A DNA stretch of 64,000 bases, from NCBI GenBank assembly GCA_023258955.1, contig JAHFRE010000002.1:1-64000 (forward strand), read 5' to 3'. Below are positions 29,475 to 45,592 of this stretch, piece after piece. The notes below the pieces were generated by a model. The model saw only the letters and a program-made list of their open reading frames with translations, did no database searches and had not been told where the DNA came from. The stretch is from Sterolibacterium sp. GTDB taxonomy: Bacteria; Pseudomonadota; Gammaproteobacteria; Burkholderiales; Rhodocyclaceae. Positions within the stretch are counted from its first letter, which is position 1. The number at the start of each line of letters is the position of its first letter. A program made the translations under genes and the position numbers.

Positions 29475-31748
29475 TCAATCCGGGTCGGTGTAGCTATGGT
29501 TGTAGGGCTTTGGTTGGAGCATCATTCCTTTGAATGCCTTTGCTCCTCCGTGCATACGTGACTTCTCGAAACCGCGGGCAATGAGTAGTTCTGCAAAGCG
29601 TTTGATCGATCCCACAAACTCACCCGTCTTCTCTGTCCACTCGCGCCAATCACCATACAAATCCGCAGTCAGCGTCTTGGCCTCAGAATGTAAGTTGCAG
29701 CGCTCTTCCATCCATTGCCCCATGGCATCTTCGTTCTCGAAATACTCATCAGTTGCATCGATCACTATTTTTGGTTGCTTCAATCCCTGCAACTGCCACA
29801 GACGGCATCCTTCAACTGCCCAAGCCATAATCCCGTCACGTTCTTTCAACAGCTTTTCGGTGAGCTTTCCGTCGCGCTTCTCCGGTGGCACCGTCACCGT
29901 GAAGGGAATCAGGTGCAACCGGCGCTTCATTGCCTCATCGACGTTGCGAATTGATGGCTTGTGGTTACCGGCGATGACCAACTTGAACTGAGGCAAGTAG
30001 TCGAAGAAATCCTGGCGCATGAAGCGCGCCGATACCTTATCGCCACCGGTGATGGCTTTCACCTTGGATTCATTCCAGCGTCGCCCTTGTTCAGTTTCGA
30101 CAGAGGACACGAAACGCGCGCCGCGCAGTCCGGCTAGATCGGTCGGATGACGGTCACCACGGGTTTCCATGAAGGTGTCCATGGGCGCATTGGCGGCGTA
30201 GTCGCCTAAGATCGTGGTGATTACATTGACAAACACCGACTTGCCATTGGCGCCTGTGCCGTACAAGAAGAACAATGCATGCTCAGTGGTCACACCGGTG
30301 AGGCAGTAGCCAATCACCCGTTGCAGATAGGCCATCAAATCCGTGTCACCGCCTGTGACATCCGCCAGGAATGCGAGCCAGCCTGGGCAGGCACCCTTAG
30401 GCGTCGCCGTCGTGATCTTGGTCATCCGGTCGGCGCGACTGTGCGGGCGCACCTGCCCAGTGCGCAGATCGATGACGCCACCAGGCGCATTGGCGAGCCA
30501 GGGATTTTGGTCCCATTCCTCCGCGGTGGAGGCATGTTGGCGATCGCTACGCGCGAGGCGCTCGACACCGCCGACAGTGCTGCTGGCTGACAGCTTGGCG
30601 GCGAGGCGGTGGGAGTCTGCCTTGATAGCGGCTTCACGGCAGATGTGACGCATCAGGTGCGTGACCATCAAGGTGCCGTCAGGCTGCCAGTGGTTGCCAG
30701 TCCACACCAGCCATTTTCCCCACGCAGCGCAGTAGCGCCAATCCTCGGCATAGCGATGTGTGAAAGAGAGTGCGAGTGCATCATCAGTCGCCCAGACGGC
30801 TCTTTCACCGGGGATGTCAGGCTCCTCCTCGGCTGGCGGCCTGAGGGTCATGCGCGGACTGGAGGCCAAAAATCCCGGCACATCGAAGCCTTGTGCCAAG
30901 GCATCGGCCACATCCCAGCCTTCGGGCGTATCCTTTGGCGGCATCAGAGCAGCGCAGGAGAAAGCGCCGGCGTTAAGCGCGGCGGCGCCTGCGGCCATGG
31001 CGTACTCCCAGCCGGGATCGTCACGATCTGGCCAGATCACGACGTGCTTGCCTGCCAGGGGTGACCAGTCGGTCTTGTCGATCGGGGCATTCGCACCATG
31101 CATGGCGGTGGTCGCTTGAATACCAGCGTCGATCAAGGCCTGCGCGCACTTCTCCCCCTCGACGAGGACCACGTGGGTGGTAGTAGTGATCCCCGGCTGG
31201 TTATAGAGCGGCCGAGGAGTGGGCGGCGAATTCTTGCCTGTCTTTGGGTTGTAGGGTCGGAACTCCTTGCGCCGTCCCGGCGGGTCGTAGCGATACACGC
31301 ACGCAATGAGTTGCCCGTCGGCCGCGAAATAGTCCCACTTGGCGGTGGCAGGACCCAGATCGTCGATCAAGACTTCTTTCTTATGGGCTTTCGGTGGTGC
31401 TGCGACAGCCCGTCCTGCCAGATCCCGCGCCAGTCGAATCACCTCTGGAAATTCAGACCTCACATCGATACCGTAGTGGCTCGCAATCACGGCATAGATA
31501 TCGCCGCCGTCGCCAGTTGCCCGATCTGTCCAGAGCCCGGCCTTGTCGCCCTCGAGCACTATTTCGAGGCTGTCGCCGGGACTGCCCAGCACGTCACCAA
31601 TGAGAAAGACGCCGTTGCGCACCTTGCCTGCGGGAAAGAGCGCGAACAGCACGCTCTCGATGCGGCTTAGCAAATCAGCGCGCAGCGCTTCGCGCTCTCG
31701 GTCCAGGTTGTGTGGCGCGCTATCTGCTACATCGTTGAAATCCATCAT
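29475..31748 (-). CDS. Phage primase-helicase (Toprim plus P4/D5-type SF3 helicase)
   Basis: A 757-residue replication protein. Residues about 1-250 include a primase-like section with a Toprim-like core (VVLVEGEKCAQALIDAG, HVVIWPDRDDPGWEYA). The later half is a D5_N/SF3 helicase: AWGKWLVWTGNHWQPDG, APGGVIDLRTGQVRPHSRAD, then Walker A LYGTGANGKSVFVNVITTIL (about residue 500), and LVIAGNHKPSIRNVDEAMKR with sensor residues. It ends in a winged-helix-like stretch. It primes and unwinds the phage origin. The ATG overlaps the sigma-like gene's stop. Confidence 0.9.
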   Translation of the reverse strand: MMDFNDVADSAPHNLDREREALRADLLSRIESVLFALFPAGKVRNGVFLIGDVLGSPGDSLEIVLEGDKAGLWTDRATGDGGDIYAVIASHYGIDVRSEFPEVIRLARDLAGRAVAAPPKAHKKEVLIDDLGPATAKWDYFAADGQLIACVYRYDPPGRRKEFRPYNPKTGKNSPPTPRPLYNQPGITTTTHVVLVEGEKCAQALIDAGIQATTAMHGANAPIDKTDWSPLAGKHVVIWPDRDDPGWEYAMAAGAAALNAGAFSCAALMPPKDTPEGWDVADALAQGFDVPGFLASSPRMTLRPPAEEEPDIPGERAVWATDDALALSFTHRYAEDWRYCAAWGKWLVWTGNHWQPDGTLMVTHLMRHICREAAIKADSHRLAAKLSASSTVGGVERLARSDRQHASTAEEWDQNPWLANAPGGVIDLRTGQVRPHSRADRMTKITTATPKGACPGWLAFLADVTGGDTDLMAYLQRVIGYCLTGVTTEHALFFLYGTGANGKSVFVNVITTILGDYAANAPMDTFMETRGDRHPTDLAGLRGARFVSSVETEQGRRWNESKVKAITGGDKVSARFMRQDFFDYLPQFKLVIAGNHKPSIRNVDEAMKRRLHLIPFTVTVPPEKRDGKLTEKLLKERDGIMAWAVEGCRLWQLQGLKQPKIVIDATDEYFENEDAMGQWMEERCNLHSEAKTLTADLYGDWREWTEKTGEFVGSIKRFAELLIARGFEKSRMHGGAKAFKGMMLQPKPYNHSYTDPD

Positions 31749-32350
31749 GCCGAAGTTCCTCCAATACCGAATGTGTGAGCAATTTCCTGCAGGCCAACCG
31801 ACCGGCGACGCAACTTGTACAGCGCATTGGCTTCGATCTGCCGAACCCTTTCGCGGGTGAGGCCTTTGGCCTTGGCAATCTCGTCGAGAGTCTGTGGCGC
31901 TCCGTCGAAGCCAAACCGGGCGCGCAGCACGTCGGACTGTTTCGGATGGATCGTGTCGAGTCGCGCATCCACTTCGCCCAGCATTTCCCGCCGCTCGAGG
32001 ATCTCCAGGGGGTCGCAACCCTGGGCCTCGTTGCCCGCCAGCAATCCCTGCACCGCCGCAGCGGTGAGCTCGACTTCCGCGGAATTGGTCTCCAGCGGGA
32101 ACTGCTGGTCCTCCGACCACAGTTCATCTGGCATCTTGTGCAGGAACACGCAGAGCTTTTCGGCGCAGGGACGCAGATCGCCGATCTCATCAAACGGCAT
32201 TCGTGAAAGATTGAGATAAGCCAGAAGATGCATTGCATAGCTGATGCCAACCAGGTCGGCAAACTTGCCGCCAGCTCGATATCCCGCTTCCTCAATAGCG
32301 CGCAGCAGACGCGCGTTGCGCACCTTGATATTGACGCGGTAGTCGCTCAT
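31745..32350 (-). CDS. Sigma-70 region 4 protein
   Basis: A 201-residue protein from the ATG at 32350, with GGAG six bases upstream. The last 70 residues match sigma region 4: DTIHPKQSDVLRARFGFDGA, then QTLDEIAKAKGLTRERVRQI, then EANALYKLRRR. 'LTRERVRQIEANAL.KLR' is the -35-binding helix-turn-helix. No region 2 motif is visible in the first 110 residues (NARLLRAIEEAGYRAGGKFA ... AMHLLAYLNLSRMPFDEIGD). It may redirect RNA polymerase or act as an activator that copies the sigma -35 contact. Confidence 0.85.
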   Translation of the reverse strand: MSDYRVNIKVRNARLLRAIEEAGYRAGGKFADLVGISYAMHLLAYLNLSRMPFDEIGDLRPCAEKLCVFLHKMPDELWSEDQQFPLETNSAEVELTAAAVQGLLAGNEAQGCDPLEILERREMLGEVDARLDTIHPKQSDVLRARFGFDGAPQTLDEIAKAKGLTRERVRQIEANALYKLRRRSVGLQEIAHTFGIGGTSA

Positions 32351-33102
32351 GACAGACTCCAGCAGCGGCTCGACCAGGAGCAGTACTTGCATTCGTAGTA
32401 GCTCGATTCGGTGGCGATGCGTGGCAACTGCTCGCCAGCTTCGGTGGCCTGGATTACCCGCACCGCGCGATCTGACATGCGCTGCGCGAGACCGCCATCG
32501 AACGGAACGAGCTCGAACAAGAGTTCCTGCGTGTTCTTGTTGATGGCAGTGAATAGCGCCGGATTGCTGGAGATGCCGGGAATCGACGCCTCCATGTAGG
32601 CTTGATAGGTAGCGATCTGGGCGGCGTAGACCGGCTTCGTTGTCGCCATGCCCTTCTTGGCGGTGTCTTTCCAGTTCTTGTCGTTCATCGTCTTGCATTC
32701 CCAGAGCATCGGGAAGCTCAGACCAAGCTCTGGTGGCGCAGCTGATATGATTCCATCGACGTGGCCCTGAATACGGCCATCGGCGACAGAGAAGCCAAAC
32801 TGGCCACCGCCCTTGCGCTGGGTATAGAGCTCGAAGCCGGCCAGGCGTAGCCAACGGATGGCGAGGTCCTCCAGAGAATGGCCGACTTCGAAGATGCGCA
32901 GTGTCCGGCCAGAAAACTCCGAGCCAGGATCCACAGCAACATCCGCGTACTCGAACTGGAGGGCCCGCTCGCAGGAAACGCCCAGGCGGGACGCGCCAAG
33001 ATAGCGGCGCTTCTGGCGGGCAGCATTTTCCGTCTGCAGGGCCGTATCCACGAGGGCTGTCACCCGCTCGAGGAAATTGGGTTGGTGGTTGAGATCAATC
33101 AT
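32347..33102 (-). CDS. Cas4/RecB-like PD-(D/E)XK exonuclease
   Basis: A 251-residue protein from the ATG at 33102, in a TGATG junction. The nuclease core shows a conserved His (FEVGHSLEDLAIRWLRLAGF), then IQGHVDGIISAAP (the D), and MLWECKTMNDKNW (the E-x-K). A Cys early on (GVSCERAL) and three at the end (YECKYCSWSSRC) give the four ligands of a Cas4-type iron-sulfur cluster. It probably resects DNA ends for recombination, along with the Sak4-like ATPase and helicase nearby. Confidence 0.85.
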   Translation of the reverse strand: MIDLNHQPNFLERVTALVDTALQTENAARQKRRYLGASRLGVSCERALQFEYADVAVDPGSEFSGRTLRIFEVGHSLEDLAIRWLRLAGFELYTQRKGGGQFGFSVADGRIQGHVDGIISAAPPELGLSFPMLWECKTMNDKNWKDTAKKGMATTKPVYAAQIATYQAYMEASIPGISSNPALFTAINKNTQELLFELVPFDGGLAQRMSDRAVRVIQATEAGEQLPRIATESSYYECKYCSWSSRCWSLS

Positions 33103-33542
33103 CAAAAGGGCATCCTTGTGGTTGAGCCTGTTGGCTGTTGTTGGGCGGCAAGACCTTGTTCAAAGAAGGCGCGGTCCTTGGTCGCCATGCGCTCGTGTTC
33201 ATCGAGCATGTGGGCCTGGTAGGCATCGATGACGACTTCGATCAAGCGCAGGATTTCCTCCTTGCGGTAGTCAGCCAGAGGCCGGTCCATGCCGATCGAG
33301 GTGACGTAATCGCCCAAGGGAATAATTGCTGCGCCTATGGCGGCGATTTCCATATCGGATGGGTCAATCACGGGGTTCTCCTGCAGGCTGGTGATCCGAT
33401 CCATCAACCGGGCGTACGCGGTCATGCACCGCATCGAGCAGAAGACCCATCGATCGGAGTAGCGGCGTGGGTTGGTACGAGGAAGCGCTGGGTTGTAACA
33501 GCCGAATCCCCGCGCCTGGCGAGAGCAGATCGCGCATTTCAC
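33102..33542 (-). CDS. DUF6511-like zinc-binding phage protein
   Basis: A 146-residue protein from a GTG at 33542, overlapping the helicase stop as GTGA. The first 40 residues have paired cysteines (KCAICSRQARGFGCY, WVFCSMRCMTAYARL) fit to hold zinc. The remainder is helical: DPSDMEIAAIGAAIIPLGDY, VTSIGMDRPLADYRKEEILR, and IDAYQAHMLDEHER. This matches a short phage family often found beside recombination nucleases and helicases. The role is unknown. Confidence 0.75.
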   Translation of the reverse strand: MKCAICSRQARGFGCYNPALPRTNPRRYSDRWVFCSMRCMTAYARLMDRITSLQENPVIDPSDMEIAAIGAAIIPLGDYVTSIGMDRPLADYRKEEILRLIEVVIDAYQAHMLDEHERMATKDRAFFEQGLAAQQQPTGSTTRMPF

Positions 33543-35209
33543 GCAGCCTCCTGATATGTTTGATTGGCGGCGTGGACCACCCGCTTGATGGCGTTCTTGT
33601 TGAACTGGAACGTGAGGAGTGCGGACGCTTGATAGCGGGTCATTCCAAAATCTGCCCGTGCCGCCGGCGGCAGGTAACGCAACTGACCCTCTGTGGGAAC
33701 CTCGTTTAGCCAGCGACGGGATTTGTGCGCAGCGTCATCCGTTTCCTGCTCGTTCAGCCAGTCGTTGGCTTGCGCCAGGCACACCGTCCGCTCGCCCACA
33801 CCCAGAAGCCGGAGCGACGTCTTTTCCAGGCCGCCGACGGCATACCAACGACCTTCCAGGAAGAACACCCCGGACCAGGCTTTGAAGCCGGCTGCCAGCA
33901 ACGCGCAGTCATCGCCAAAAAGATCACACCACGCGAAGTTCGAGCGCTTCAGAAGATCGATCTCGGACATCACAAAATCGACGAGTAACTGCTTGTCCTC
34001 CACGTCTTCCTGTTCCATCAAATACCCACAGATGGGGCATTCACGAGACGCCAGGGGGATCTGCGCGAGGCAGTTTGGGCACTTCCTTATGGGCGCCTCG
34101 CCATTTCCCTCATAGCCGTCAAGGTCAACTTCCTGCTCGAGGCTGCCGTGGACCAGGGATGCCGTACCGAAATCAAGAACAAAGCAGTCCGATTTGACGA
34201 CGGAGGGATACTCAGCCGGTTCGACCGTGCGCAGGCCGCGGCCGATCATCTGGATAAGCGTGGATTTGTAGGAACTCGGGCGCAGCAGGATGATGCAGGA
34301 GGTCGGGGTGTAGTCGTATCCTTCGGTTAGCACCGCAACGTTGACGATGACGGTAATGATGCCGGTCTCAAACGCCGCCAGCGTCTTCTTGCGTTGGTGC
34401 TCGGGCATATCGCAATACACGACAGCGGCGGGCACACCTTCGGCGAGAAACGCTTCGCACACCGCATGGGCATGCGCTACGGTGGCGCCGAAGGCGATGG
34501 TCTTGCGACCCGCGGCGCGTTCTTTCCAGTGGCGAACCACCGCAGCATTGACGGGCGAGGTGTTCATGATCGTCGCCACGGCGCTCATGTCATAGTCCTC
34601 GGCCAACTTCTTCACACCTTCGAGCGCTTCCCGCGTACCAACATCAATCACGAACGTGCGTGGAGCCACCAGATGGCCTGAGCGAATAAGCTCGCCCAGC
34701 CGGATCTGGTCGGCGACGTTGGAGAAGACCTCCCGTAGGCCTTTGCCGTCACCACGGTTGGGTGTAGCGGTGACCCCATAGATGAGCGCACTGGGGTTCC
34801 TGGCCAAGGTCGTGTCGATCACCTGCCGATAGGTCGTTGCCGCGCAGTGATGCGCTTCGTCGATCACCAGGAGATCAAGCGTCGGGATCTGGGCCAAGTT
34901 GCGGGCTAGGGTCTGGACCATCGCGAAGGTGGCCTGACCCGCCCAGGATTTTTGACGTGAATCGAACACCGACGTACTGATGCCGGGATTCACCCGAGCG
35001 AACTTGGTACGGTTCTGCTCGGTGAGTTCGTCGCGATGGGCCAGGACACAGGCCTTGGCATCCGGATTGAAGAGAAACTCGCCGGCAGCACCGGACAGGC
35101 AAATCGTCTTACCACTACCTGTTGGAGCCACCCCTAAGGTGTTGCCATGAGCCTTAAGCGCCCCGACACAGCGTGTGACGAACTCGCGTTGGCGTGGTCG
35201 AAGAATCAT
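33539..35209 (-). CDS. SF2 DEAD/DEAH-box helicase
   Basis: A 556-residue helicase. Motif I is GVAPTGSGKTICLSGAAGEF (residue about 27), motif II LLVIDEAHHCAATTYRQVID, motif III IYGVTATPNRGDG, and motif VI LIQMIGRGLRTVEPAEYPSV. After the motor core there is a zinc ribbon (RKCPNCLAQIPLASRECPIC) and a C-terminal domain of unknown role. This is the type III restriction/UvsW-like helicase found in phage replication modules. It probably aids fork restart or recombination. Confidence 0.9.
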   Translation of the reverse strand: MILRPRQREFVTRCVGALKAHGNTLGVAPTGSGKTICLSGAAGEFLFNPDAKACVLAHRDELTEQNRTKFARVNPGISTSVFDSRQKSWAGQATFAMVQTLARNLAQIPTLDLLVIDEAHHCAATTYRQVIDTTLARNPSALIYGVTATPNRGDGKGLREVFSNVADQIRLGELIRSGHLVAPRTFVIDVGTREALEGVKKLAEDYDMSAVATIMNTSPVNAAVVRHWKERAAGRKTIAFGATVAHAHAVCEAFLAEGVPAAVVYCDMPEHQRKKTLAAFETGIITVIVNVAVLTEGYDYTPTSCIILLRPSSYKSTLIQMIGRGLRTVEPAEYPSVVKSDCFVLDFGTASLVHGSLEQEVDLDGYEGNGEAPIRKCPNCLAQIPLASRECPICGYLMEQEDVEDKQLLVDFVMSEIDLLKRSNFAWCDLFGDDCALLAAGFKAWSGVFFLEGRWYAVGGLEKTSLRLLGVGERTVCLAQANDWLNEQETDDAAHKSRRWLNEVPTEGQLRYLPPAARADFGMTRYQASALLTFQFNKNAIKRVVHAANQTYQEAA

Positions 35210-35221
35210 CGCCTCGAACTC

Positions 35222-35863
35222 CTACTGTGCCCAAGCCGGGCGAGTGGGTACGCCGGGTGCTGCGGGCTGGGCCACGGGAGCCGCCGGTTCAGCGGGAGCG
35301 GCACCGGAAAACCCGCTCGGCGCAGTCGCCGCGCGTGGCGCCGCACCCATAAGCGCCAGATAATTCTTTTTGTCCGGCTGGATGGCTGACTTGACGACAT
35401 TCTTCTCTTCGCCGTTCTGGTCCTTCTCGACATCGATGCGAGCGACGAACTCGATGCCGTCAAGATCGTTGAAGCCACGGATACGGCGAGCGGTTTGTGC
35501 CTGCGGCGACTGATCTCCAGGCTGAATGCCACGGGCCGAGTTGAGAATGGCGCGCAGGAAGCTGCGGCCCATGTTGGTCCAGTCCGGGCCCTTCGGGCTA
35601 TACAGACCGATCAGACCGAAGACCACGCGCTTGGCGAACGGTCCCTCAAGGATCGTGAACTTGCCATTGAGATACACGGCATCGGTCTTGTCCGAGCGGG
35701 TGGCATAGCCACCGGTCCACCCCTGGCTCGGGTCGTCGTAGCCACCCGGGCGGATGGTCATGACGACCTTGGCCAGCGTCTTGGGCGGGATCAGGCCGAA
35801 GTCGCGCTGATCCTCAGCATCGTTGAAGTCGTTCCAGGCGGCGTTATTGGCATTGCTGTTCAT
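35222..35863 (-). CDS. Probable ssDNA-binding phage protein
   Basis: A 213-residue protein from the ATG at 35863, which has AGGAG seven bases upstream. The core (DFGLIPPKTLAKVVMTIRPG, QGWTGGYATRSDKTDAVYLN, FTILEGPFAKRVVFGLIGLY) is beta-rich, followed by MGRSFLRAILNSARGI and GFNDLDGIEFVARIDVEKD. The end is an Ala/Pro-rich linker. This resembles conserved phage proteins that lie next to Sak4-type ATPases. An SSB-like role fits the beta core plus disordered tail but is inferred. Confidence 0.65.
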   Translation of the reverse strand: MNSNANNAAWNDFNDAEDQRDFGLIPPKTLAKVVMTIRPGGYDDPSQGWTGGYATRSDKTDAVYLNGKFTILEGPFAKRVVFGLIGLYSPKGPDWTNMGRSFLRAILNSARGIQPGDQSPQAQTARRIRGFNDLDGIEFVARIDVEKDQNGEEKNVVKSAIQPDKKNYLALMGAAPRAATAPSGFSGAAPAEPAAPVAQPAAPGVPTRPAWAQ

Positions 35864-35883
35864 CAAATTTCTCCTGTGAGTTG

Positions 35884-36684
35884 TTACACGCGGGGCGCAG
35901 TGATTTTGGAAATGAGGCGGCCGAGATGCGGCTCTTCGACGACGTCGAGCCGACCGGAGCGGTCCTTGGCGGGATAGCCCCAGGGATTCATGTGCTGGCA
36001 GACGAAGGCGCGATACGGTATGCCGTCCTCGGCCTTAAGGACGACCATCGAGATGACCTGATCGAGAATGCCGGGCAGTTCGAGCGAAGCCTTGGAGCCG
36101 TCGATCTGCGGCGAGAAAACCTTGCGGTTGAAGTCGTCCAGCTTCTCGTCCAAGATGCCGACCAGCCACACATCCTTGCTGCGGATGTGCTGCCACTGGG
36201 TGAGCCAGGCGATCAGCTCGCTGCCATGCAGGCCGTACGCGCCGCGGTTGTCAGGCTTGCCCGTCTTGTCGCTGTAGGCTTGCGGCTGGCCCTTGGACCA
36301 CTGCAGGCACAGGCGGCCGGCTACGGTGATCGAGTCAACGAAGATCAAGGCGTACTTGTCGAGAATCGCCGGATCGCCGTACTGGGTGCAGACGCGCTCG
36401 TAGTGCGCTTGGCTGTAGGCCTGGTCGTCGCGCAGCGCCGGATTCGGGCCGCCGATGAAGCAGGCGAGATCCCGGCACTCCGGCCAGGTCCGAGGACGAA
36501 CGGTGTCGCAGGGCCAGTCGCGCACAGCGAGGTCACCATCCTCCATATCGACGAACAGGGCACTGATGGCCTCGGTCATCCTAAGCAAGGTGGTCTTGCC
36601 AACACCTGCTGGGCCCAGGATGACGCCGGAGGAACGACGGTTTTCTGCCAGGCGCTGCTCGGCAGTAATAATGGGGAAGGCCAT
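35884..36684 (-). CDS. Sak4-like RecA-fold ATPase
   Basis: A 266-residue protein from the ATG at 36684, with GGAGG seven bases upstream. It has Walker A GPAGVGKTTLLRM (residue about 25), then AISALFVDMEDGDLAVRDWP, and Walker B YALIFVDSITVAGRLCLQW. This is the P-loop layout of phage nucleotide-binding proteins of the Sak4/AAA_24 type. Those work as minimal RecA-like annealing proteins. The neighbours (SSB-like protein, helicase, Cas4-like nuclease) form a recombination module with it. Confidence 0.8.
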   Translation of the reverse strand: MAFPIITAEQRLAENRRSSGVILGPAGVGKTTLLRMTEAISALFVDMEDGDLAVRDWPCDTVRPRTWPECRDLACFIGGPNPALRDDQAYSQAHYERVCTQYGDPAILDKYALIFVDSITVAGRLCLQWSKGQPQAYSDKTGKPDNRGAYGLHGSELIAWLTQWQHIRSKDVWLVGILDEKLDDFNRKVFSPQIDGSKASLELPGILDQVISMVVLKAEDGIPYRAFVCQHMNPWGYPAKDRSGRLDVVEEPHLGRLISKITAPRV

Positions 36685-37214
36685 CACGCCACCTCCGTTT
36701 CAGAGACTGCAGTGCGGCTGAGGAAGGCCATCACGCAACTGGCTGCAGTTGCACCGGCGGCCCGCGCTAGGTCGCGCAGTTCCTTGATTGCTCTGTGGCG
36801 CCGGGTGTCTGCCGCAATCTGGGTGGCCAGCAATGCCAGGTGCACCTCGACCTCGGCGAGCGTGGCCTGGGACAGGGGCTTGTAGATCACGCCCTCCTCG
36901 TCGCCAGCGTCAGCGCCTTCCTGCGGAATGCTGATGGCTGTGGGTAGGCTGGTGGCGAAGTGCTCGCGCAGCCCAGGCAACTTCAACTGGGTCACGACGT
37001 CCTGGTCCTGCGTGGCTTTCTTGAGTTCCCGGCGAGCGACATCGGTCAGCGCGTCCTCTGCCAGACGGCTGCCGACGGTTTGAACGTCGTCGGGATAGGT
37101 CGCGCAGACCAGGCGTGCGATGTCGCGCGGCCTGGCGTGGCCGGTTACTGCGAAGGCGTGCGAGATTTCGTCGCGCACGGCCTCCCGCAAGTTTGTCATA
37201 GAGGGACTACGCAT
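36684..37214 (-). CDS. Phage early protein, unknown function
   Basis: A 176-residue protein from the ATG at 37214, eight bases inside the ParB-like gene, with GGAG eight bases upstream. An ATG at 37199 is an alternative. It includes VRDEISHAFAVTGHARPRDI, ARLVCATYPDDVQTVGSRLA and a helical end (SQATLAEVEVHLALLATQIA, ADTRRHRAIKELRDLARAAG). Mostly helical; the first part may be a helix-turn-helix. No named family. Confidence 0.65.
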   Translation of the reverse strand: MRSPSMTNLREAVRDEISHAFAVTGHARPRDIARLVCATYPDDVQTVGSRLAEDALTDVARRELKKATQDQDVVTQLKLPGLREHFATSLPTAISIPQEGADAGDEEGVIYKPLSQATLAEVEVHLALLATQIAADTRRHRAIKELRDLARAAGATAASCVMAFLSRTAVSETEVA

Positions 37215-38226
37215 GGCTTTGGCTCCAGTTCTGGTAAAAGGCGTTGAGGAAGGGCACGGCGCGGCCCAGCCACAGACGGACGTTGGCGTGCTGGTAATCG
37301 GGAATGGCGGCAAGCGCTTCGTCGATGTCGAAATCCAGCGTGCCCAAGGACTCCAGCCCTTCGCGCAGGCGCAGCCAGTGTTCGCACTTGATGGCGTCCT
37401 CAGGATCTCCGGGGGCCATGTGAAACTGACCGTCTGTCGCGCGCACCATCAGGCCCGGCTCGCCGGCGATGGCAATGCGGCGCGCTTCGGCTGGCGTGGG
37501 CAGGGGTGGCGCGTCGGCCTTGATGACTTCGACCACCGCGCACTGCTCACTGCCGGTAAGACCTTGTTCCTGGGCAACCTTGTCAAAAATGCGCACCGCC
37601 GAGGGGCCGCACACACCGGCTTCGCGGATCCGTCCCTTGACCTCACGGGCGATGACGCGAATCTCATCAGGGGAGCGAGATAGCACTTCGCTCTGGATCT
37701 CAGCCGGCAATTGGGCGATACGGGCGGCAGTTGAGACCGCCAATTCTCCAGAGTCGACGGCCTCAACTAACTCCGGCACCCCTGTCGCTTGTACCTGCCT
37801 TGCCTGGCGCACGAGGCGCTCGGAGACATTGAGCGTTTCGGCCGCTTGTTCCTGCGTGAAGGATGACGCTGTCTGGAAAACCGGCAAATTTGCCGGTTTA
37901 TCCGTTGGCCTACCCTGCGGCAGGGTTGCCAGCCTGGTTGCCACCATCGCGCGCTGACTTTCGGTCAGATGCCGGCGATGAAGGTTGAGCGAGATGACCA
38001 GAGTGGTCGGGTCGCCTTCGCCGGCACCAACTTCGCGCACCAACGGCTCGATGCCCAGCTGCTCGCAGGCGCGAAGGCGGTGGCGGCCGTCGATCACTTG
38101 CCCATCCCTTACCAGAATGGGCTCTACCTGACCGTTGAGCTCGATATCGCTCACCAGGGCGGCGAAGGAGGCCTCGTCCATGATCGGAAAGATCTCGGTG
38201 GCCGGGTGGAGCGTGTAGGCCGCCAT
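37207..38226 (-). CDS. ParB-like partition/regulatory protein
   Basis: A 339-residue protein from the ATG at 38226, in a TGATG junction with GGGGAGG seven bases upstream. Residues about 10-110 are the ParB/Srx nuclease-like domain (FAALVSDIELNGQVEPILVR, GQVIDGRHRLRACEQLGIEP). A helix-turn-helix follows (SFTQEQAAETLNVSERLVRQ, ARQVQATGVPELVEAVDSGE, AARIAQLP). The C-terminal third is unassigned. Such proteins occur in phage early operons as DNA-binding factors. No ParA is present, so partition is unlikely. Confidence 0.85.
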   Translation of the reverse strand: MAAYTLHPATEIFPIMDEASFAALVSDIELNGQVEPILVRDGQVIDGRHRLRACEQLGIEPLVREVGAGEGDPTTLVISLNLHRRHLTESQRAMVATRLATLPQGRPTDKPANLPVFQTASSFTQEQAAETLNVSERLVRQARQVQATGVPELVEAVDSGELAVSTAARIAQLPAEIQSEVLSRSPDEIRVIAREVKGRIREAGVCGPSAVRIFDKVAQEQGLTGSEQCAVVEVIKADAPPLPTPAEARRIAIAGEPGLMVRATDGQFHMAPGDPEDAIKCEHWLRLREGLESLGTLDFDIDEALAAIPDYQHANVRLWLGRAVPFLNAFYQNWSQSHA

Positions 38227-38702
38227 CACTTCGCCTCCCCAGCGCTGAGCAACGTGTACTTCGCCTTACCGGTTGTGACGGTACGGGCGGGGGCGAACTG
38301 GGCTTTCAGAGATTCCTGCCAGGCCTGGTACTTGGTCTCGCTAACGCGATAGGCCGTTTCGACGAACTCGGCGGGGTTGTCGCCGGCGGCAGAGATACGG
38401 GCAATGAGTTCGGCCAGCTGCTTCTGGTCCCACTCGACCTTCTTGGGCAGATCGGCGCTCACGCGAACATCGCCGTCATCGAAATGCACGATGCCGGTAT
38501 CCTTGCCTTGGGCCAGGCGCAGCGCCTTAGCCTGCTGGGCGTAGCGCAGGTCGATAGCCTTCTCGATGTGCGCCAGCTGATTTTTGGCGCTCGCGAGCTC
38601 TGTCATGGCCGCGTCCAGCGCCTTCTGCAGAACGTCGGCGGGCGCCTTGGACAACTCGGCGGGTGGCATGGCAGCGATTTGGGTCAGGAGTTGGGCGCTC
38701 AT
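38226..38702 (-). CDS. Conserved early phage protein
   Basis: A 158-residue protein from the ATG at 38702 (MSAQLLTQIAAMPPAELSKA), overlapping the HTH gene. It starts with a coiled-coil stretch (LDAAMTELASAKNQLAHIEK, AIDLRYAQQAKALRLAQG), then DTGIVHFDDGDVRVSADLPK and KVEWDQKQLAELIARISAAG. The last part (VETAYRVSETKYQAWQESLK) is helical. It reads like phage early proteins of unknown role encoded beside the excisionase-type HTH protein. No catalytic motif seen. Confidence 0.65.
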   Translation of the reverse strand: MSAQLLTQIAAMPPAELSKAPADVLQKALDAAMTELASAKNQLAHIEKAIDLRYAQQAKALRLAQGKDTGIVHFDDGDVRVSADLPKKVEWDQKQLAELIARISAAGDNPAEFVETAYRVSETKYQAWQESLKAQFAPARTVTTGKAKYTLLSAGEAK

Positions 38703-38920
38703 GCCGGCACCTCCGACAGATCGCGCACCGAGGTGCTTATACGCAAGCACTTCCCCTCGTAGGCTTCAACATCCGTCAGGCGGTAGCGAATGTACCCACC
38801 AATCCGCATCCACCGGCAGCCATGGCCTTCACTGCGCCACCGAGCCAGGGTCTCCCCGCTACAGTTCCACCTTTCCGCAAGTTCTTCTGCGGTCAGATGC
38901 TTCACGTTGCTCACGATCAT
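38699..38920 (-). CDS. Excisionase/AlpA-like HTH protein
   Basis: A 73-residue protein. KHLTAEELAERWNCSGETLA, then RWRSEGHGCRWMRIGGYIRY, then RLTDVEAYE is the MerR-like helix-turn-helix and wing of the HTH_17/excisionase family. The first ATG touches an AGGAG sequence with no spacing, so the GTG at 38914, six bases from it, may be the true start. As the first gene of the early operon it may be a regulator or excisionase. Confidence 0.8.
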   Translation of the reverse strand: MIVSNVKHLTAEELAERWNCSGETLARWRSEGHGCRWMRIGGYIRYRLTDVEAYEGKCLRISTSVRDLSEVPA

Positions 38921-38993
38921 CTCCTATCAAACAGCCACAATTGGCGTAGGCGGAGCTTCCTGCGCCAAAGTGGTGACGAACATGCGATGGATT

Positions 38994-39016
38994 TGGTGAA
39001 AAATCTGGTGAAAAAT
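38994..39016. repeat. Direct repeat TGGTGAAAAAT upstream of early operon
   Basis: TGGTGAAAAAT occurs at 38994 and 39006, 12 nt apart, with a partial TGGTGACGAA at 38971. It lies 75-100 nt upstream of the first early gene, where the early promoter and operator should be. I could not place a convincing -35/-10 pair. Confidence 0.5.
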
Positions 39017-39023
39017 TGAGACG

Positions 39024-39048
39024 AAAAAAAACCGCCCTAAGGCGGTTT
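39024..39048 (-). terminator. Intrinsic terminator of the 39-41 kb cassette
   Basis: AAACCGCC-CTAA-GGCGGTTT forms a stem at 39029-39048. On the minus strand it runs directly into a tract of T residues (39024-39031). It ends the two-gene cassette and insulates it from the early operon. Confidence 0.9.
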
Positions 39049-39065
39049 GAATTCATAGACGGCAC

Positions 39066-40034
39066 TTATCGTCGTAACAATCGATGGCGCCCGTGACTTA
39101 CCTGCTCGAACCAATCATCCAGTTGGAAGGCACCACCAGGTTTCTGCCCCATTGCATTAGCAAGGGAATCTGATCTCGACTTAACATCGACCTTGACATC
39201 GACCCAGGCAAAACCAGCGGCATCATGGTTTTTGCGCTGCCAGAACAAGGCAATGATGGCCTTTTGCTTGCCTTTGAAGCGTTTTGACCTGGATCCAATT
39301 GTCAGTGTGCCCGACTCGTCGAAATTAAAGGTCGAATCGATCGCGCTTCCTGGTTTCTGCGTTACAAGACGATCTAGCAAGACGCGGTTAATGACCAGTT
39401 TCTCCTCTCCAGTGACCCAGATGTTGTCGAGGGAAACCGTCATATGCCCCGACGGCATGGCGATTCGTGCATCTGGTGACTTCCCAGTAAAAAGAATCAC
39501 ACCATTTATCAGATCTGGTCTCTCATCTAGGTGAGCAATGACGGCATCAAGGTTCTTGCGAAGGTTGCGAACCACAAGAACGGGCATGCGCATCGATCCA
39601 ATCCTGGCCTCGCCAAGAAACCAAAATAGATTCCCAAGTAGCGGGCTCTTGATGCCTGACCTAAAATGCGAGGGAATCTCGAGTTGATCGGCAATCAATA
39701 TCCAGAGTGCCTCTGGGATCAATCGATAAATCGCGATTTCGTCGAGTGTGACGGCAATCTCACGGCCGGATCGCGGACAAACATAATGTGCACACTTGGA
39801 CTCCGTGTCGTACTCGACGTCGACCTCAACTGGCTCCTGATTTGCTACGATATCAACAACAGTCGAGGACTCGTACCGTTCGAACATCAGCAAACCAGCC
39901 CCTTCCAGCTTCTTACCGATGCCTCGATTTCCCTGCAGGTCACTGCCCAGTACGAAGCGATCACGCATAGCCAACAATTGCAGGAATTTGGCGCCTGCTT
40001 TCGCTGAAATGCTTACCCCGTCATCAGAATTCAT
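39066..40034 (-). CDS. Unknown protein, second gene of two-gene cassette
   Basis: A 322-residue protein from the ATG at 40034 (MNSDDGVSISAKAGAKFLQL), overlapping the previous stop by 11 nt. It has a possible strand-rich middle: VVDIVANQEPVEVDVEYDTE, CAHYVCPRSGREIAVTLDEI, IYRLIPEALWILIADQLEIP. It then reads IGSMRMPVLVVRNLRKNLDA and VILFTGKSPDARIAMPSGHM. No Walker, nuclease or transmembrane motif was found. Gene overlap and a shared terminator tie it to the 422-residue partner. I do not recognise the family. Confidence 0.75.
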   Translation of the reverse strand: MNSDDGVSISAKAGAKFLQLLAMRDRFVLGSDLQGNRGIGKKLEGAGLLMFERYESSTVVDIVANQEPVEVDVEYDTESKCAHYVCPRSGREIAVTLDEIAIYRLIPEALWILIADQLEIPSHFRSGIKSPLLGNLFWFLGEARIGSMRMPVLVVRNLRKNLDAVIAHLDERPDLINGVILFTGKSPDARIAMPSGHMTVSLDNIWVTGEEKLVINRVLLDRLVTQKPGSAIDSTFNFDESGTLTIGSRSKRFKGKQKAIIALFWQRKNHDAAGFAWVDVKVDVKSRSDSLANAMGQKPGGAFQLDDWFEQVSHGRHRLLRR

Positions 40035-41292
40035 TGATGATGCCCCAGTGCCGCAGCATCCGGTCACGAAGTTCCCGTTCCTCGTTGCTCATCCTGCCGT
40101 TCGAGCATCCGCCGGGTTGCTTGATTTGTACTGGTAGCCCATGCTTCCGTCGTTCGCCTTTCTTCGGAATGTCTATCAGTAGTTTGATCTGCGTGATCTC
40201 ATAGGGTGTCAGATCATCGATGCCGAAATCCCCGAGAGCAGCAGCCCATATCGTACGTCCCTCATTACGATTAACTCTGATATCGAGGTAGTTGGAAAAC
40301 GCGCGCTGCCGTGATTCGGAGCCTTCGGCCGCGAAGTGCTTCTGCTCCACCCTGATATGTGTAACAAGCACGGATCCAATGGGTTCGCCTTGAGAAGGGA
40401 AATCCCGAGGCTTCTTGAACGAATCGAGGTCGAATGACCTGATCGGGAGCCGATCGCCTGAAATATCCAGGCCCATGATCGCATCGGCAAACGCGCGACA
40501 GATATCCTTGTGCAGATTGTATATCTTGAAATAGACCTCGATGAAACCTGAGGCTGGCTCATAGGTCAGACGAATACGTTCGCATGGCACGATATACTTT
40601 GTCTTGATGGTTCCGTCGACAACCGTTTCATAGCTGTCTGCATCCTTGTTGATCGCCACTGTAAACTGATACAACGTGACCGCTACGGCTGCGGATTCCA
40701 CCTCATCTTCATCTTCACCTTCATCTTCATCTACCACGAAGTTGGTCTGTGCAACGCGCACAAAGTCTGTAACAGCGATATCGCTTGATTTCAACTGCAT
40801 CAGCGACGCAATGTGATCAGCGAGCTTTGCCTTGGATTCCTCAGTGACGACCAACACAATACCTGGCTTCCCGGTAAACCCGCTATAGACTTTGGGTGCC
40901 ATGCGATACTCGATGGCATAGCGCGCCTCCTCTGCTTCGCAAAATACCATCGGGTATTCAACATAGAGCCACAGCATCCTCGCAATGTTGTCAGGCAACA
41001 CTTTCAGGTCCGGGAATTTCACGGATGCGCCATGCGATCTTGCCGCCTCCAATCCTGCATCGCGGGCCATCAGGTGGATTCTTTCCGAACGATCCTCGAA
41101 TTGCTTGCGCGCATTTGCCGCTGCCGAATTCATTACAGCTTCGATGCTTTCACGAACCTTTTCGATCGGTTCTGTCCAGTCAATCACTGCAGCACTTACC
41201 GCATCACAGCCGGCCATGAATTTCTGCAGCAGCGGCAAGGTATTTTTCTTCGTCTTCTGAACGAGCCGGGTGAAGTTCTCCATATCTTTCAT
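40024..41292 (-). CDS. Unknown protein, first gene of two-gene cassette
   Basis: A 422-residue protein from the ATG at 41292 (MKDMENFTRLVQKTKKNTLP), with GGGAG ten bases upstream. Residues 1-90 are helical (VSAAVIDWTEPIEKVRESIE). The middle (MLWLYVEYPMVFCEAEEARY, GFTGKPGIVLVVTEESKAKL) is mixed. An acidic run DEDEGEDEDEVESA splits the protein near residue 190. The last part (HGLPVQIKQPGGCSNGRMSN, ELRDRMLRHWGIINEF) is charged. The frame stays open upstream to 41493 but reads as low-quality sequence. The family is unknown to me. Confidence 0.75.
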   Translation of the reverse strand: MKDMENFTRLVQKTKKNTLPLLQKFMAGCDAVSAAVIDWTEPIEKVRESIEAVMNSAAANARKQFEDRSERIHLMARDAGLEAARSHGASVKFPDLKVLPDNIARMLWLYVEYPMVFCEAEEARYAIEYRMAPKVYSGFTGKPGIVLVVTEESKAKLADHIASLMQLKSSDIAVTDFVRVAQTNFVVDEDEGEDEDEVESAAVAVTLYQFTVAINKDADSYETVVDGTIKTKYIVPCERIRLTYEPASGFIEVYFKIYNLHKDICRAFADAIMGLDISGDRLPIRSFDLDSFKKPRDFPSQGEPIGSVLVTHIRVEQKHFAAEGSESRQRAFSNYLDIRVNRNEGRTIWAAALGDFGIDDLTPYEITQIKLLIDIPKKGERRKHGLPVQIKQPGGCSNGRMSNEERELRDRMLRHWGIINEF

Positions 41293-41407
41293 TTTTTGGT
41301 AGCTCCCTGTTACCAAATAATTCCCAAAGCCCCAACTGGAACTCGAGGTATTGCTTCCACAACGGTAGATTGCCCCTGTGGTCGATAGCGTCAAACGGCA
41401 TTGCCAC
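41204..41407 (-). CDS. Possible small leader ORF overlapping cassette start
   Basis: A 67-residue frame from a GTG at 41407 (ATG at 41401). Its first part, MPFDAIDHRGNLPLWKQYLE followed by FQLGLWELFGN, reads like real protein. Its end, which overlaps the first 89 nt of the 422-residue gene in another frame, reads as an overlap artefact. It could be a short upstream gene, or the original N-terminus of the 422-residue protein lost through a frameshift near 41310-41330. Confidence 0.3.
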   Translation of the reverse strand: MAMPFDAIDHRGNLPLWKQYLEFQLGLWELFGNRELPKNERYGELHPARSEDEEKYLAAAAEIHGRL

Positions 41408-42396: not shown

Positions 42397-42506
42397 ATAA
42401 CAGCAAGACGCCCCGGGTGCGCAAGCCCGGCCCCGACCGCCCGGCCGGCAGCAAGCGCTCGCGCATGGCAATCGAGGCGCCCACCATTGAAGGAGACAAG
42501 AAATGA
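42393..42506 (+). CDS. Small basic protein, 37 residues
   Basis: Read from the ATG at 42393, which overlaps the previous stop (ATGA), with AAAAGGAG upstream. The sequence (MNNSKTPRVRKPGPDRPAGS) is basic and Pro-rich. Its stop overlaps the next start as ATGA. Too short for family assignment, but the double overlap suggests a real coupled gene. Confidence 0.45.
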   Translation: MNNSKTPRVRKPGPDRPAGSKRSRMAIEAPTIEGDKK

Positions 42507-43252
42507 GCCTATCCCAACAAATCATCGCCGCCATAGGTACTTCGCCTGGTGGTACCGTTAAGCAAATAGCAGCTGCGGCCGGCATATCGGAAGCCCGAGT
42601 AGGCCCTGCGATTTCACGGTTGCACGCTCGAGGGCGGCTTACCCGCACCAAAGCACACACGACGCCCAGCGGTAGCATTGCCTATGCATATAGCCTAGGG
42701 TCGTCCCAGCCAAGTATAGATAGGGCAAAACCCAAAAGTGCAAACAACTCAAACAACACAAACAACACAAACCTGACCAGTCTCATCGACCAGATGAGCC
42801 GAGCCCTGGCCAACCAGATTGCCAGTGGTATCGGCGCGCACTTGATGGTGGAGCTTTCCAAGATGGCGCCTGACGCATCAACCCGGGTTGCGCTGCCCAC
42901 TGCGCAGGATTTGATCGCTCGAGTGCCGCTGGCCCTTCCCGCCCCAGCGGCAAGGAAGCTGACGAAGGTGGTCATCGTCGGCATGAATTCCAAGCAGGCC
43001 GGTGCGATCCAGAACCAGTTCCACGACACGCTGCACATTGACTTCTGGAACGACAAGGACGGTCATTCGCTGGAAATGCTCAAGCAATTCAGCCGTCACG
43101 CCGAGCACGTGTTTTTCAACATGAGCAACTGTAGCCATACGGCTGTTGCAATGTCTCAGAGCGTCGGCGCCACTATCACCCGAGTATCTGGCGGCACGAC
43201 AGCCATGGCCGATGCGCTCACCAAGTTCTACGTTGAAGAAGTTACATCCTGA
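42503..43252 (+). CDS. Winged-helix protein with DUF2325-like C-terminal domain
   Basis: A 249-residue protein. The first 65 residues are a winged helix (MSLSQQIIAAIGTSPGGTVK, QIAAAAGISEARVGPAISRL, HARGRLTRTKA). An Asn-rich linker (NNSNNTNNTN) follows. Residues about 150-249 resemble DUF2325: KVVIVGMNSKQAGAIQNQFH, DTLHIDFWNDKDGHSLEMLK, AEHVFFNMSNCSHTAVAMSQ, TITRVSGGTTAMADAL. DUF2325 is a Rossmann-like domain of unknown role, often in island-borne proteins. It may sense a ligand and bind DNA. Confidence 0.7.
   Translation: MSLSQQIIAAIGTSPGGTVKQIAAAAGISEARVGPAISRLHARGRLTRTKAHTTPSGSIAYAYSLGSSQPSIDRAKPKSANNSNNTNNTNLTSLIDQMSRALANQIASGIGAHLMVELSKMAPDASTRVALPTAQDLIARVPLALPAPAARKLTKVVIVGMNSKQAGAIQNQFHDTLHIDFWNDKDGHSLEMLKQFSRHAEHVFFNMSNCSHTAVAMSQSVGATITRVSGGTTAMADALTKFYVEEVTS
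42742..42768 (+). repeat. Tandem 9-bp repeat in coding sequence (Asn linker)
   Basis: Three near-identical 9-nt units (AAACAACTC, AAACAACAC, AAACAACAC) encode the Asn-rich linker. The period is a multiple of three, so length change here would alter linker length without shifting the frame. Confidence 0.65.
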
Positions 43253-44332: not shown

Positions 44333-44562
44333 GTAGCACCATGTTCCTCACCCCCGACGAAATCGCCGATCTGTCTGGCTACAAGCCGCAGTCAGTGGCA
44401 CATCAGTGCCGCTGGCTTGATCGCCACGGGTTCCCGTTTGAGCTCTCTGCAACCGGCCGGCCGAAGGTACTGCGATCCTACGTTGAGCGCCGAATGGGAC
44501 TTGCTACGCAGGCGAAGAAGAGCCAATGTGAGCCTGACTTCAGCAAGTGGGAGGACAGGTAG
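44329..44562 (+). CDS. DUF4224 protein
   Basis: A 77-residue protein from the ATG at 44329. MFLTPDEIADLSGYKPQSVA, then CRWLDRHGFPFELSATGRPK, then VLRSYVERRMG is the DUF4224 pattern ('lT.eEia.ltg......Q..wL...gip....a.GrP.V.r'). It is usually found directly before phage integrases and may regulate or assist recombination. The integrase starts one base after its stop. Confidence 0.9.
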   Translation: MSSTMFLTPDEIADLSGYKPQSVAHQCRWLDRHGFPFELSATGRPKVLRSYVERRMGLATQAKKSQCEPDFSKWEDR

Positions 44563-44563
44563 G

Positions 44564-45592
44564 ATGGCGGGGAAACGGAAATTCCCATCACGCTTGCCGC
44601 CGCGATTGTATATGACCAAGGGCAAGCTGGTGACAAGCTATTGGACCATCTTGCCTGGGAACAAATGGGCGGGGCTGGGTCACGACCTTATCGCTGCCAA
44701 GCGGATGCTTCTGTCCCTTCAAAGCAACGTTCCTTCGGTCGGGTCCATTGGGGAACTGATTGACGACTATCTGCGCGACGAGCTGTGCCCACTGGTTGCG
44801 CAGGGCAAGCGCGCACAGCGCACCCTCGACGACCGCGAGGCGCAGTCCGTTGAGTTGAAAGCGGCCTTCGGAAAAATGGCCATTGCCGATCTCACTCCAA
44901 ACCACGTCTGGAAGTACCTGCACAAGTTCCGCGGCACGGTGGCGCCCGTGCGCGCAAACCGGGAAATCACGTTCCTGAAAGCTGTATATTCCTGGGCGCG
45001 CGACCAGGGACTGATTCGCGACAATCCCTGCACCGGCGTCAAGATGAACGAAGAGGTGCCGCGCGATCGATTGGTCAGTGACAAGGAACTAGCAGCCTTC
45101 CTCAAGCTCGCTCGCGAGAGCGGCGACATCAGCACCCGGGCGGCGCTGGCATTCCATATCGCTTACTTGACCGGCAAGGGTCAGGGTCAGATTTTACGGC
45201 TGTCGCGCAGCCAGATGTCCGACCAGGGCATTGAATTCGGCAAACGCAAGGGCGGCGCCTGCGTTCTGGTCACCTGGTCAGACGAATTGCGCGCGGCCAT
45301 CGATGAATCACTAGCCATGCCTTCACGGATCTCGCCGATGTTTGTCGTCCACACGCAAACCGGCTCGCCGTATAGCAGTGACGGCTTCAAGAAGGGGTGG
45401 CAGCTACTGATGCGTAAATGGGTTGCTCAAGGTGGCGAACGCTTTACCTTCCACGATTCCCGCGCAAAGGCGACGACCGATGTGATCGAGCAGGGCCGCA
45501 AGGCGAGCGAACTGACAGGGCACAAGCTGGAATCGACGGTGACCAAGATCTACGATCGGCGGCATATCCGAGTATCGGCGCCGGTAAGGTAA
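44564..45592 (+). CDS. Phage tyrosine integrase, first catalytic Arg replaced
   Basis: A 342-residue recombinase from the ATG at 44564 (GACAGGTAGG upstream). The arm/core-binding half includes AVYSWARDQGLIRDNPCTGV. In the catalytic half the Lys (EFGKRKGGACVLVTW), HxxR box (FTFHDSRAKATTDVI), GH (ELTGHKLESTVTK) and nucleophile Tyr (KIYDRRH) are present. Box I reads AYLTGKGQGQILRL: where the family has TGxR, a Gly codon (GGT, 45179-45181) stands, one base from CGT. Without this Arg the enzyme may be inactive. It normally cuts att sites; the attachment site should lie just to the right. Confidence 0.85.
   Translation: MAGKRKFPSRLPPRLYMTKGKLVTSYWTILPGNKWAGLGHDLIAAKRMLLSLQSNVPSVGSIGELIDDYLRDELCPLVAQGKRAQRTLDDREAQSVELKAAFGKMAIADLTPNHVWKYLHKFRGTVAPVRANREITFLKAVYSWARDQGLIRDNPCTGVKMNEEVPRDRLVSDKELAAFLKLARESGDISTRAALAFHIAYLTGKGQGQILRLSRSQMSDQGIEFGKRKGGACVLVTWSDELRAAIDESLAMPSRISPMFVVHTQTGSPYSSDGFKKGWQLLMRKWVAQGGERFTFHDSRAKATTDVIEQGRKASELTGHKLESTVTKIYDRRHIRVSAPVR

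Follow-up and report, generated by a model that had tools for sequence, protein, structure and literature searches.

The DNA analysed here (the window) is a stretch of 64,000 nt, positions 1 to 64,000 of contig JAHFRE010000002.1 from a Sterolibacterium sp. genome. It includes a prophage in which two adjoining minus-strand genes, designated P1 and P2, probably encode an undescribed two-protein activator of the prophage early operon. We regard the pair as an on-switch rather than a weapon because many relatives carry it before a three-part DNA site, the 12-23 box, that changes in step with P2. More tentatively, and with some doubt, we propose that the pair and its own three-repeat site make up a portable on-switch that exists in many distinct versions, is exchanged within an immunity block and has a plasmid copy before a ubiquitin-like operon. 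Relatives are identified below by locus (L) and genome (G) numbers.

The P1-P2 pair and its relatives

P1 (positions 40024–41292, 422 aa) and P2 (39066–40034, 322 aa) share an 11 nt overlap, and stop codons are included in both sets of coordinates. The two open reading frames (ORFs) are those of the original prediction, which had extended the cassette to position 41407, 115 nt past the ATG of P1. That position coincides with the start of a 67-aa ORF for which the family libraries gave no matches. The strong terminator predicted to close the pair was confirmed on the minus strand at 39029–39048, where 8 pairs are followed by TTTTT. Using strict criteria, an intrinsic terminator was found 3′ of P2 in 33 of 100 non-redundant relatives but in 0.0 of the shuffled sequences, and eight other gene ends yielded 0 to 2 each under these criteria. 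Hence, the terminator after P2 is not due to chance.

The two genes belong together, as had been supposed. P2 directly follows P1 in 222 of 237 loci, a further 6 loci stop at a contig end, and 9 were scored as lacking P2. Among these nine, five have a tandem P2 hidden by the ORF start rule, L302 has P2 approximately 850 bp away, and L099, L247 and L299 are without P2 (L299 is also without a P1 match in the architecture table). In L077 and L078, P1 and P2 are fused in a single ORF, of 724 and 721 aa, respectively, that matches both profiles.

The description of the cassette as unrecognised also holds. Neither window protein belongs to a Pfam, NCBIfam or PADLOC family, and the sole curated match is that of P1 to phrog_37634 (E 1.2e-26), an unnamed family of unknown function. 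Neither phrog_37634 nor a description of such a P1-P2 pair was found in the literature searched, namely open-licence papers.

The source genome holds three P1 genes, namely the one in the window, one on contig C103 (27 % identity to window P1, with its own P2 adjoining) and one on contig C97, which was detected by profile search and has its own P2. Profile searches found P1 in 32 of 398 genomes of the phylum, which is a lower bound, as at most four candidates were scored per genome and L319 was missed. A single-sequence search found P1 in 9 of 369 genomes of the class. P1 queries run against viral contigs in six scans gave 3, 77 (from the best 80 of 84 matches), 80 (from the best 80 of 160 matches), 62, 0 and 14 loci, and a scan of viral contigs with P2 returned none. 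A tblastn search of 50,697 phage records gave no match for P1 (queries from four subfamilies) or P2 (one query). The relatives belong mostly to a prophage lineage.

The 12-23 box

In relatives, short direct repeats lie between the terminator and the gene for an AlpA/excisionase-like protein, the first gene of the early operon. In the window, this gene (38699–38920, minus strand; HTH_17, PF12728, E 1.8e-7) is the proposed first target of P1-P2. The window box, also on the minus strand, consists of R1 (TTTTTCACC, 39007–39015), R2 (TTTTTCACC, 38995–39003, 12 bp from R1) and R3 (TTCGTCACC, 38972–38980, 23 bp from R2). A tentative -10-like element, GAAGCT (38954–38959, minus strand), was picked by eye and by analogy with relatives.

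After filtering for non-redundancy, 87 of 235 regions and 113 of 131 arrays were left. Within the 87 regions, repeat spacings of 11–12, 22–23 and 34–35 bp were counted 41, 46 and 37 times, respectively, compared with 7.1, 6.3 and 5.0 in shuffled sequences. Three copies at approximately 0/12/35 reached a score of 20 in 30 of the 87 non-redundant loci, where 0.1 would be expected. A control scorer that was slightly narrower found 27 of 87 at 0/12/35 and 0 to 2 at five other spacings, and two spacings that reuse the same repeats gave 9 each. In other parts of these loci the same score was reached in at most one case, apart from the region upstream of gp156 (10 of 72), where the boxes are taken to be the same box.

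When a longer search region and another threshold were used, the box was found in 131 of 238 loci, including the window. Its start lies 283–363 nt before the AlpA stop codon in all 131, despite a distance from P2 that ranges from 1 to 1462 nt, and from this narrow range of positions it appears to be part of the early-operon promoter. A box scan gave 133 matches, of which 26 were beyond the distance limit used. These were 21 upstream of gp156, one upstream of a Sak-type gene (L075), the plasmid locus L031 described below, and L183, L226 and L281, which have no AlpA or gp156 profile match near. Save for the last four, no box away from the early operon was seen among the 133 matches. In 14 of 15 non-redundant boxes with GTAC-type repeats, a -10-like element has its A 19 nt and its T 23 nt downstream of the R3 start, and other offsets reach at most 9. 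At the P1 promoter the repeat unit shows no enrichment (3 copies in 104 loci compared with 7.0 in shuffled sequences), which counts against the box being the operator of the repressor.

These data also bear on two other roles for the pair. It is unlikely, but conceivable, that P1-P2 is a Cro-like repressor or a two-way regulator that uses the same box to shut down or time the early operon. The box, its position and the winged helix predicted for P2 (see below) would all fit a repressor, and the box overlaps the promoter region. However, Cro-type operators are usually inverted repeats. In addition, the last GTAC-type repeat ends approximately 10 nt before the -10-like element and no good -35 was seen by eye, which is the arrangement of class II activated promoters as described in PMC4344509. 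We think it improbable that P1-P2 is a replication initiator and the repeats are the iterons of an origin beside the replication operon. The repeats are direct and helically phased, DNA-binding folds are predicted, the operon includes a primase, and the first large gene past the pair looks primase-like by eye in both L354 and L364, with no Pfam match for the L364 gene. Against this role are the narrow range of distances to the AlpA gene, the presence of a -10-like element, the lack of an AT-rich stretch beside the box by eye in the regions inspected, and the plasmid CP013100, where the box is directly before a ubiquitin-like operon.

Relationship between the box and P2

The repeat units found across the loci include GCCCGTACA, TTCCTACCT, ATTTCTCCC, TTTCAGTAA, ACCATAAAT and TTTTTCACC, and the repeats in the three prophages of the source genome are TTTTTCACC, TTTGCCCACC and ATAGGCTA. 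Loci were compared in pairs. Where full-length P2 similarity was <0.15, unit similarity was 0.42–0.49 in four classes of AlpA similarity and 0.67 for the single pair in a fifth. Where P2 similarity was >0.6, unit similarity was 0.94–0.98 in the three AlpA classes that contain pairs, all with AlpA similarity of 0.6 or more. Pairs with low P2 similarity and XRE similarity of 0.4–0.7 had a unit similarity of 0.42 (777 pairs), and those with high P2 and XRE <0.2 had 0.88 (18 pairs). The corresponding values for the ImmA-type protein were 0.42 (low P2, ImmA <0.4) and 0.92 (high P2, ImmA <0.2; 71 pairs). In these comparisons, the sequence of the box is more closely tied to P2 than to AlpA, XRE or ImmA.

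Two further observations on P2 were made. In L101 and L170 the P2 ORF is seemingly truncated and the repeat box is kept. The P2 proteins of L106 and L116, which have CCCCCACA boxes, carry K in the loop after the presumed recognition helix, where most relatives shown have S. This is anecdotal, as are the findings that the P2 of L139, which is close to that of L106, keeps S and has the box CCCATACA, and that L151 has K with another box.

Exchange of the cassette

L024 and L030 are two prophages of one chromosome (G125), and their DNA is 92.4–98.3 % identical on both flanks of a central region (L024 8519–12588, L030 8165–12205) that does not align and that comprises the repressor, P1, P2 and the spacer between P2 and AlpA. 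The pattern recurs in L026 and L302. The P1 ratio was <0.25 in 488 of 2994 pairs with an SSB score ratio >0.75. These alignments indicate that the repressor, P1-P2 and the DNA after them are exchanged as a block. The AlpA regions of L024 and L030 are 93.9 % identical in DNA and the repeats differ (GCCCGTACA versus TTTGCCC(G/A)CC), so these natural swaps agree with the box following P2. TTTGCCC(G/A)CC is also present in L080, as two copies 12 bp apart by eye, and the L080 backbone is approximately 80 % identical to the window prophage.

The original prediction placed the pair in an accessory slot, and both the L024/L030 swap and the other cassettes found in the same slot elsewhere bear this out. 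That P1 is a core gene of the lineage was rejected, as 13 of the 52 places with an SSB-like early gene in the 398 genomes have P1 within approximately 8 kb. Among 20 further SSB-like places examined, P1 was found in 2 more (L319 and L326). At the other 18 there was a different cassette, a P2-like protein with no evident P1, or nothing that could be recognised (L324 is a 1.7-kb contig end). G373 has seven SSB copies and no P1 match in the profile search, itself a lower bound, and three of the four SSB places examined there carry another two-gene cassette. In L314, L316, L317 and L322, which come from two genomes (three prophages in one, a single prophage in the other), the slot holds a different pair of genes, encoding 413 and 369 aa, and the L314 pair has no Pfam family. 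In L327 (7993–12153), the slot contains a LexA-like gene and genes for a 434-aa protein that weakly matches the P1 profile, a DUF3800 protein and a P2-like protein. No significant 12/23 box was found with the alternative cassettes in L314, L322, L323, L328, L333, L320, L321 and L331. The box test for L327 gave a nominal 0.03, and for L318, which has a P2-like protein, 0 of 100 shuffles were as good.

Pairs outside prophages

That the pair is always in prophages was rejected on the basis of L031, L354 and L364. L031 is in plasmid CP013100 of Candidatus Tenderia electrophaga, where P1-P2 is followed by Multi_ubiq, a weakly JAB-like gene and ThiF. Between P2 and Multi_ubiq there is a 12/23 array (TTCACACC, TTCACACC, CACACACC), and 0 of 100 shuffles were as good. 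The array is followed by CATAAT, which in this one case is counted at the same offset as the -10-like element of GTAC-type boxes. In this region (L031 2688–14652), which is possibly a plasmid defence island, P1-P2 lies among weakly DUF499-like and PglZ-like genes, DUF3800 and the ubiquitin-like genes. In L354 and L364, P1 is found with distant P2-like proteins beside restriction-modification genes.

An anti-phage or superinfection-exclusion role had been proposed for the cassette and now seems very improbable. The cassette is exchangeable and has its own terminator, and the survey of neighbours that was to check the role did reveal defence-like surroundings, with restriction-modification, Abi_2 or ubiquitin-like genes beside the pairs in L031, L354 and L364. 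However, the surroundings are mostly the early operon and a repressor, a recurrent place in the early/immunity region, and L031 has the same kind of box before its neighbouring operon. Window P1 and P2 had no PADLOC match at E-values of up to 10, and neither the predicted winged helix of P2 nor the covariation of P2 with a repeat box at a promoter favours defence.

Predicted folds

The AlphaFold models are confident, with a mean predicted local distance difference test score of 91.8 for P1 and 91.4 for P2. PDB profile searches gave nothing convincing, and Foldseek comparison of the models with PDB gave no match at E 1e-3.

P1 is predicted to be helical in its N-terminal part and to continue in a mixed fold of the CENP-N/RdgC-like kind, and the acidic linker noted earlier was seen as a low-confidence loop at residues ~181–200. 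The best comparisons were with CENP-N/Chl4 (Z 8.3, 163 residues, root-mean-square deviation (rmsd) 5.3), RdgC (Z 6.1, 202 residues, rmsd 8.1) and RnlA (Z 5.1, 82 residues, rmsd 3.4). The possibility that P1 is an RdgC-like recombination modulator acting with the phage recombinase, with P2 as its regulator, has little to recommend it: viral RdgC/recombination-associated models in a viral structure library match P1 (E 7e-4 to 8e-3) and the neighbours are Sak4-like and SSB-like, but TM-scores are ~0.2, P1 is unrelated in sequence to 19 RdgC proteins (hhalign probability 0.2 %), and RdgC (PF04381) was neither matched by window P1 in Pfam nor present in the list of 8 families obtained for 14 relatives of P1.

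P2 is predicted to consist of an N-terminal domain of uncertain fold and a C-terminal winged helix of the OmpR/PhoB type (residues ~232–322). In the model, residues 232–322 have the winged-helix fold with an N-terminal beta sheet that characterises effector domains of this family and match YycF (Z 6.6, rmsd 3.1, 81 residues), and the first 23 structure rows for the C-terminus are OmpR/PhoB-type, CosR, ToxR or CadC DNA-binding domains. Among 13 P2 relatives there is no Pfam family, the best E value being 0.18, to unrelated families. No receiver domain was found in the N-terminal part in Pfam or shown in the structure-match list. The model of residues 4–226 weakly resembles Can2 (Z 5.2), Bax1 (Z 4.5) and Ecl18kI (Z 4.1). 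The earlier statement that the proteins lack P-loop and HNH motifs is upheld, as the window proteins match no such family. For PD-(D/E)XK a caveat is needed because of the weak nuclease-like resemblance of the P2 model, although visual inspection of the alignment revealed no catalytic D...(D/E)xK.

Proposed mechanism

In a lysogen, a neighbouring repressor (in relatives, XRE with an ImmA-like protease, or a LexA- or WYL-type protein) would keep the P1-P2 promoter silent. Once DNA damage had led to loss of this repressor, P1 and P2 would be made from their two overlapping genes, a unit with a terminator of its own. We infer that the proteins bind each other and that the complex would bind the three direct repeats, spaced 12 and 23 bp, via the P2 winged helix. 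From this position, just 5′ of a promoter whose -35 is poor, it would recruit RNA polymerase and turn on the early operon, which encodes AlpA-like, recombinase, SSB, helicase, nuclease and primase proteins. As pair and box are swapped together, related prophages residing in one cell would carry separate switches.

Several findings weigh against activation by P1-P2, or limit the case for it. A box at a promoter could also serve repression, and the Z values for P1 and P2 are middling and reveal no function. No box was found in 107 of the 238 loci at the threshold used, and there is no significant box with the fused genes of L077 and L078 or the distant pairs of L354 and L364 (L302, P 0.07). A fixed -10-like element is established in one repeat family only, the candidate in the window is weak, and some GTAC-type loci have a partial -35 (TGAC) directly before R3 by eye. 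No XRE or ImmA match was found beside P1 in the window prophage with the neighbour profiles. At P2 similarities of 0.3–0.6, box similarity rises with XRE (0.73 to 0.93), ImmA (0.81 to 0.94) and AlpA (0.81 to 0.92). Locus pairs are not independent because of shared ancestry, and covariation cannot separate P1 from P2 because they are inherited together. When only P2 C-termini were compared, 105 pairs had dissimilar C-termini with similar AlpA and similar boxes (means 0.81 and 0.91). The truncated P2 ORFs explain part of these (L101 is in 51 and L170 in 14), but P2 looks intact in L215 (15 pairs) and L070 (10 pairs). With full-length P2, 6 such pairs are left, with a box similarity of 0.44–0.67.

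Comparison with known systems

Control by two neighbouring activator genes is known from the FlhDC-type activators SetCD of the SXT/R391 integrative and conjugative elements and AcaCD of IncA/C plasmids, which are under a repressor of lysogeny type whose release is attributed to DNA damage (PMC4344509; see also PMC4207636). SetCD has a 19-bp site near the -35 of its targets, in the class II position, and the setCD genes are repressed by SetR, which is thought to be inactivated after DNA damage (PMC4344509). To judge from the sequences of relatives, P1-P2 is likewise a two-gene operon next to a repressor, with a box near the -35 of the target promoter. However, P1 and P2 have no FlhC/FlhD family match in Pfam, their predicted folds are an OmpR-type winged helix (P2) and a CENP-N/RdgC-like fold (P1), the box is three direct repeats ~12 and 23 bp apart, and the carriers are mostly prophages. 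The best reading, by analogy, is that P1-P2 is SetCD-like in logic and unrelated in sequence.

OmpR/PhoB regulators bind direct repeats, and PhoP binds 7-bp repeats with a 4-bp spacer (PMC4832192). P2 resembles them in the predicted fold of residues 232–322 and in the helically phased direct repeats nearby, whose phase of about 11 bp corresponds to that of the sites of this family, but differs in having no Pfam match, an N-terminal domain not recognised as a receiver, and three copies in a 12/23 layout rather than a simple tandem pair. The CENP-N/CENP-L group and RdgC share middling structural similarity with P1 (Z 5 to 8), but P1 lies in a different context and has no sequence similarity to RdgC. 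ImmR/ImmA is the switch of ICEBs1 and related prophages. P1-P2 relatives also have an XRE repressor and an ImmA/IrrE-type protease beside the early operon, but with an extra two-protein layer that would stand between repressor and operon.

The proposal gives a widespread unnamed gene pair a testable function. If true, it adds a layer to prophage control, from repressor to activator to early operon, and natural protein/DNA-box pairs could account for the coexistence of close relatives within a cell and might be used as orthogonal expression switches.

Neighbouring genes

In unannotated loci, genes were called by a simple script, and neighbours are tentative unless matched by a profile. The recurrent order in relatives is serine recombinase module, repressor genes, P1, P2, AlpA, gp156, Sak4, SSB, helicase, nuclease and primase. 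In the window, the rest of the early replication/recombination operon (29475–38750, minus strand), which is proposed to be expressed after activation, was identified using profiles and Pfam. It encodes gp156-like and weakly ParB-like proteins, an AAA_24 (Sak4-like) ATPase, an SSB-like protein (no Pfam match), a helicase, a weakly PDDEXK_1-like protein and a D5 primase. The tyrosine integrase gene is at 44417–45592.

The nearest profiled gene upstream of P1 was examined in 267 loci. It is a divergent XRE gene in 95, an ImmA-type gene in either orientation in 82 and DUF2188 in 38, and 35 have none; in the remainder it is DUF2924, XRE, LexA, WYL or DinB. Pfam confirmed XRE, Peptidase_M78, LexA/S24 and WYL neighbours, with one example each. 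The P1 promoter fits a sigma-70 promoter in part, with a 9-of-12 match in 28 of 83 relatives compared with 8.9 % in shuffled sequences. In the window, a plus-strand gene between P1 and the integrase (42503–43252) has a weak MarR_2/AbiEi-like helix-turn-helix and, since no XRE or ImmA was found there, is a possible regulator. In L361 and L365, LexA-like and DinB-like genes and RecA surround P1-P2, with RecA identified by Pfam in L365 and by eye in L361.

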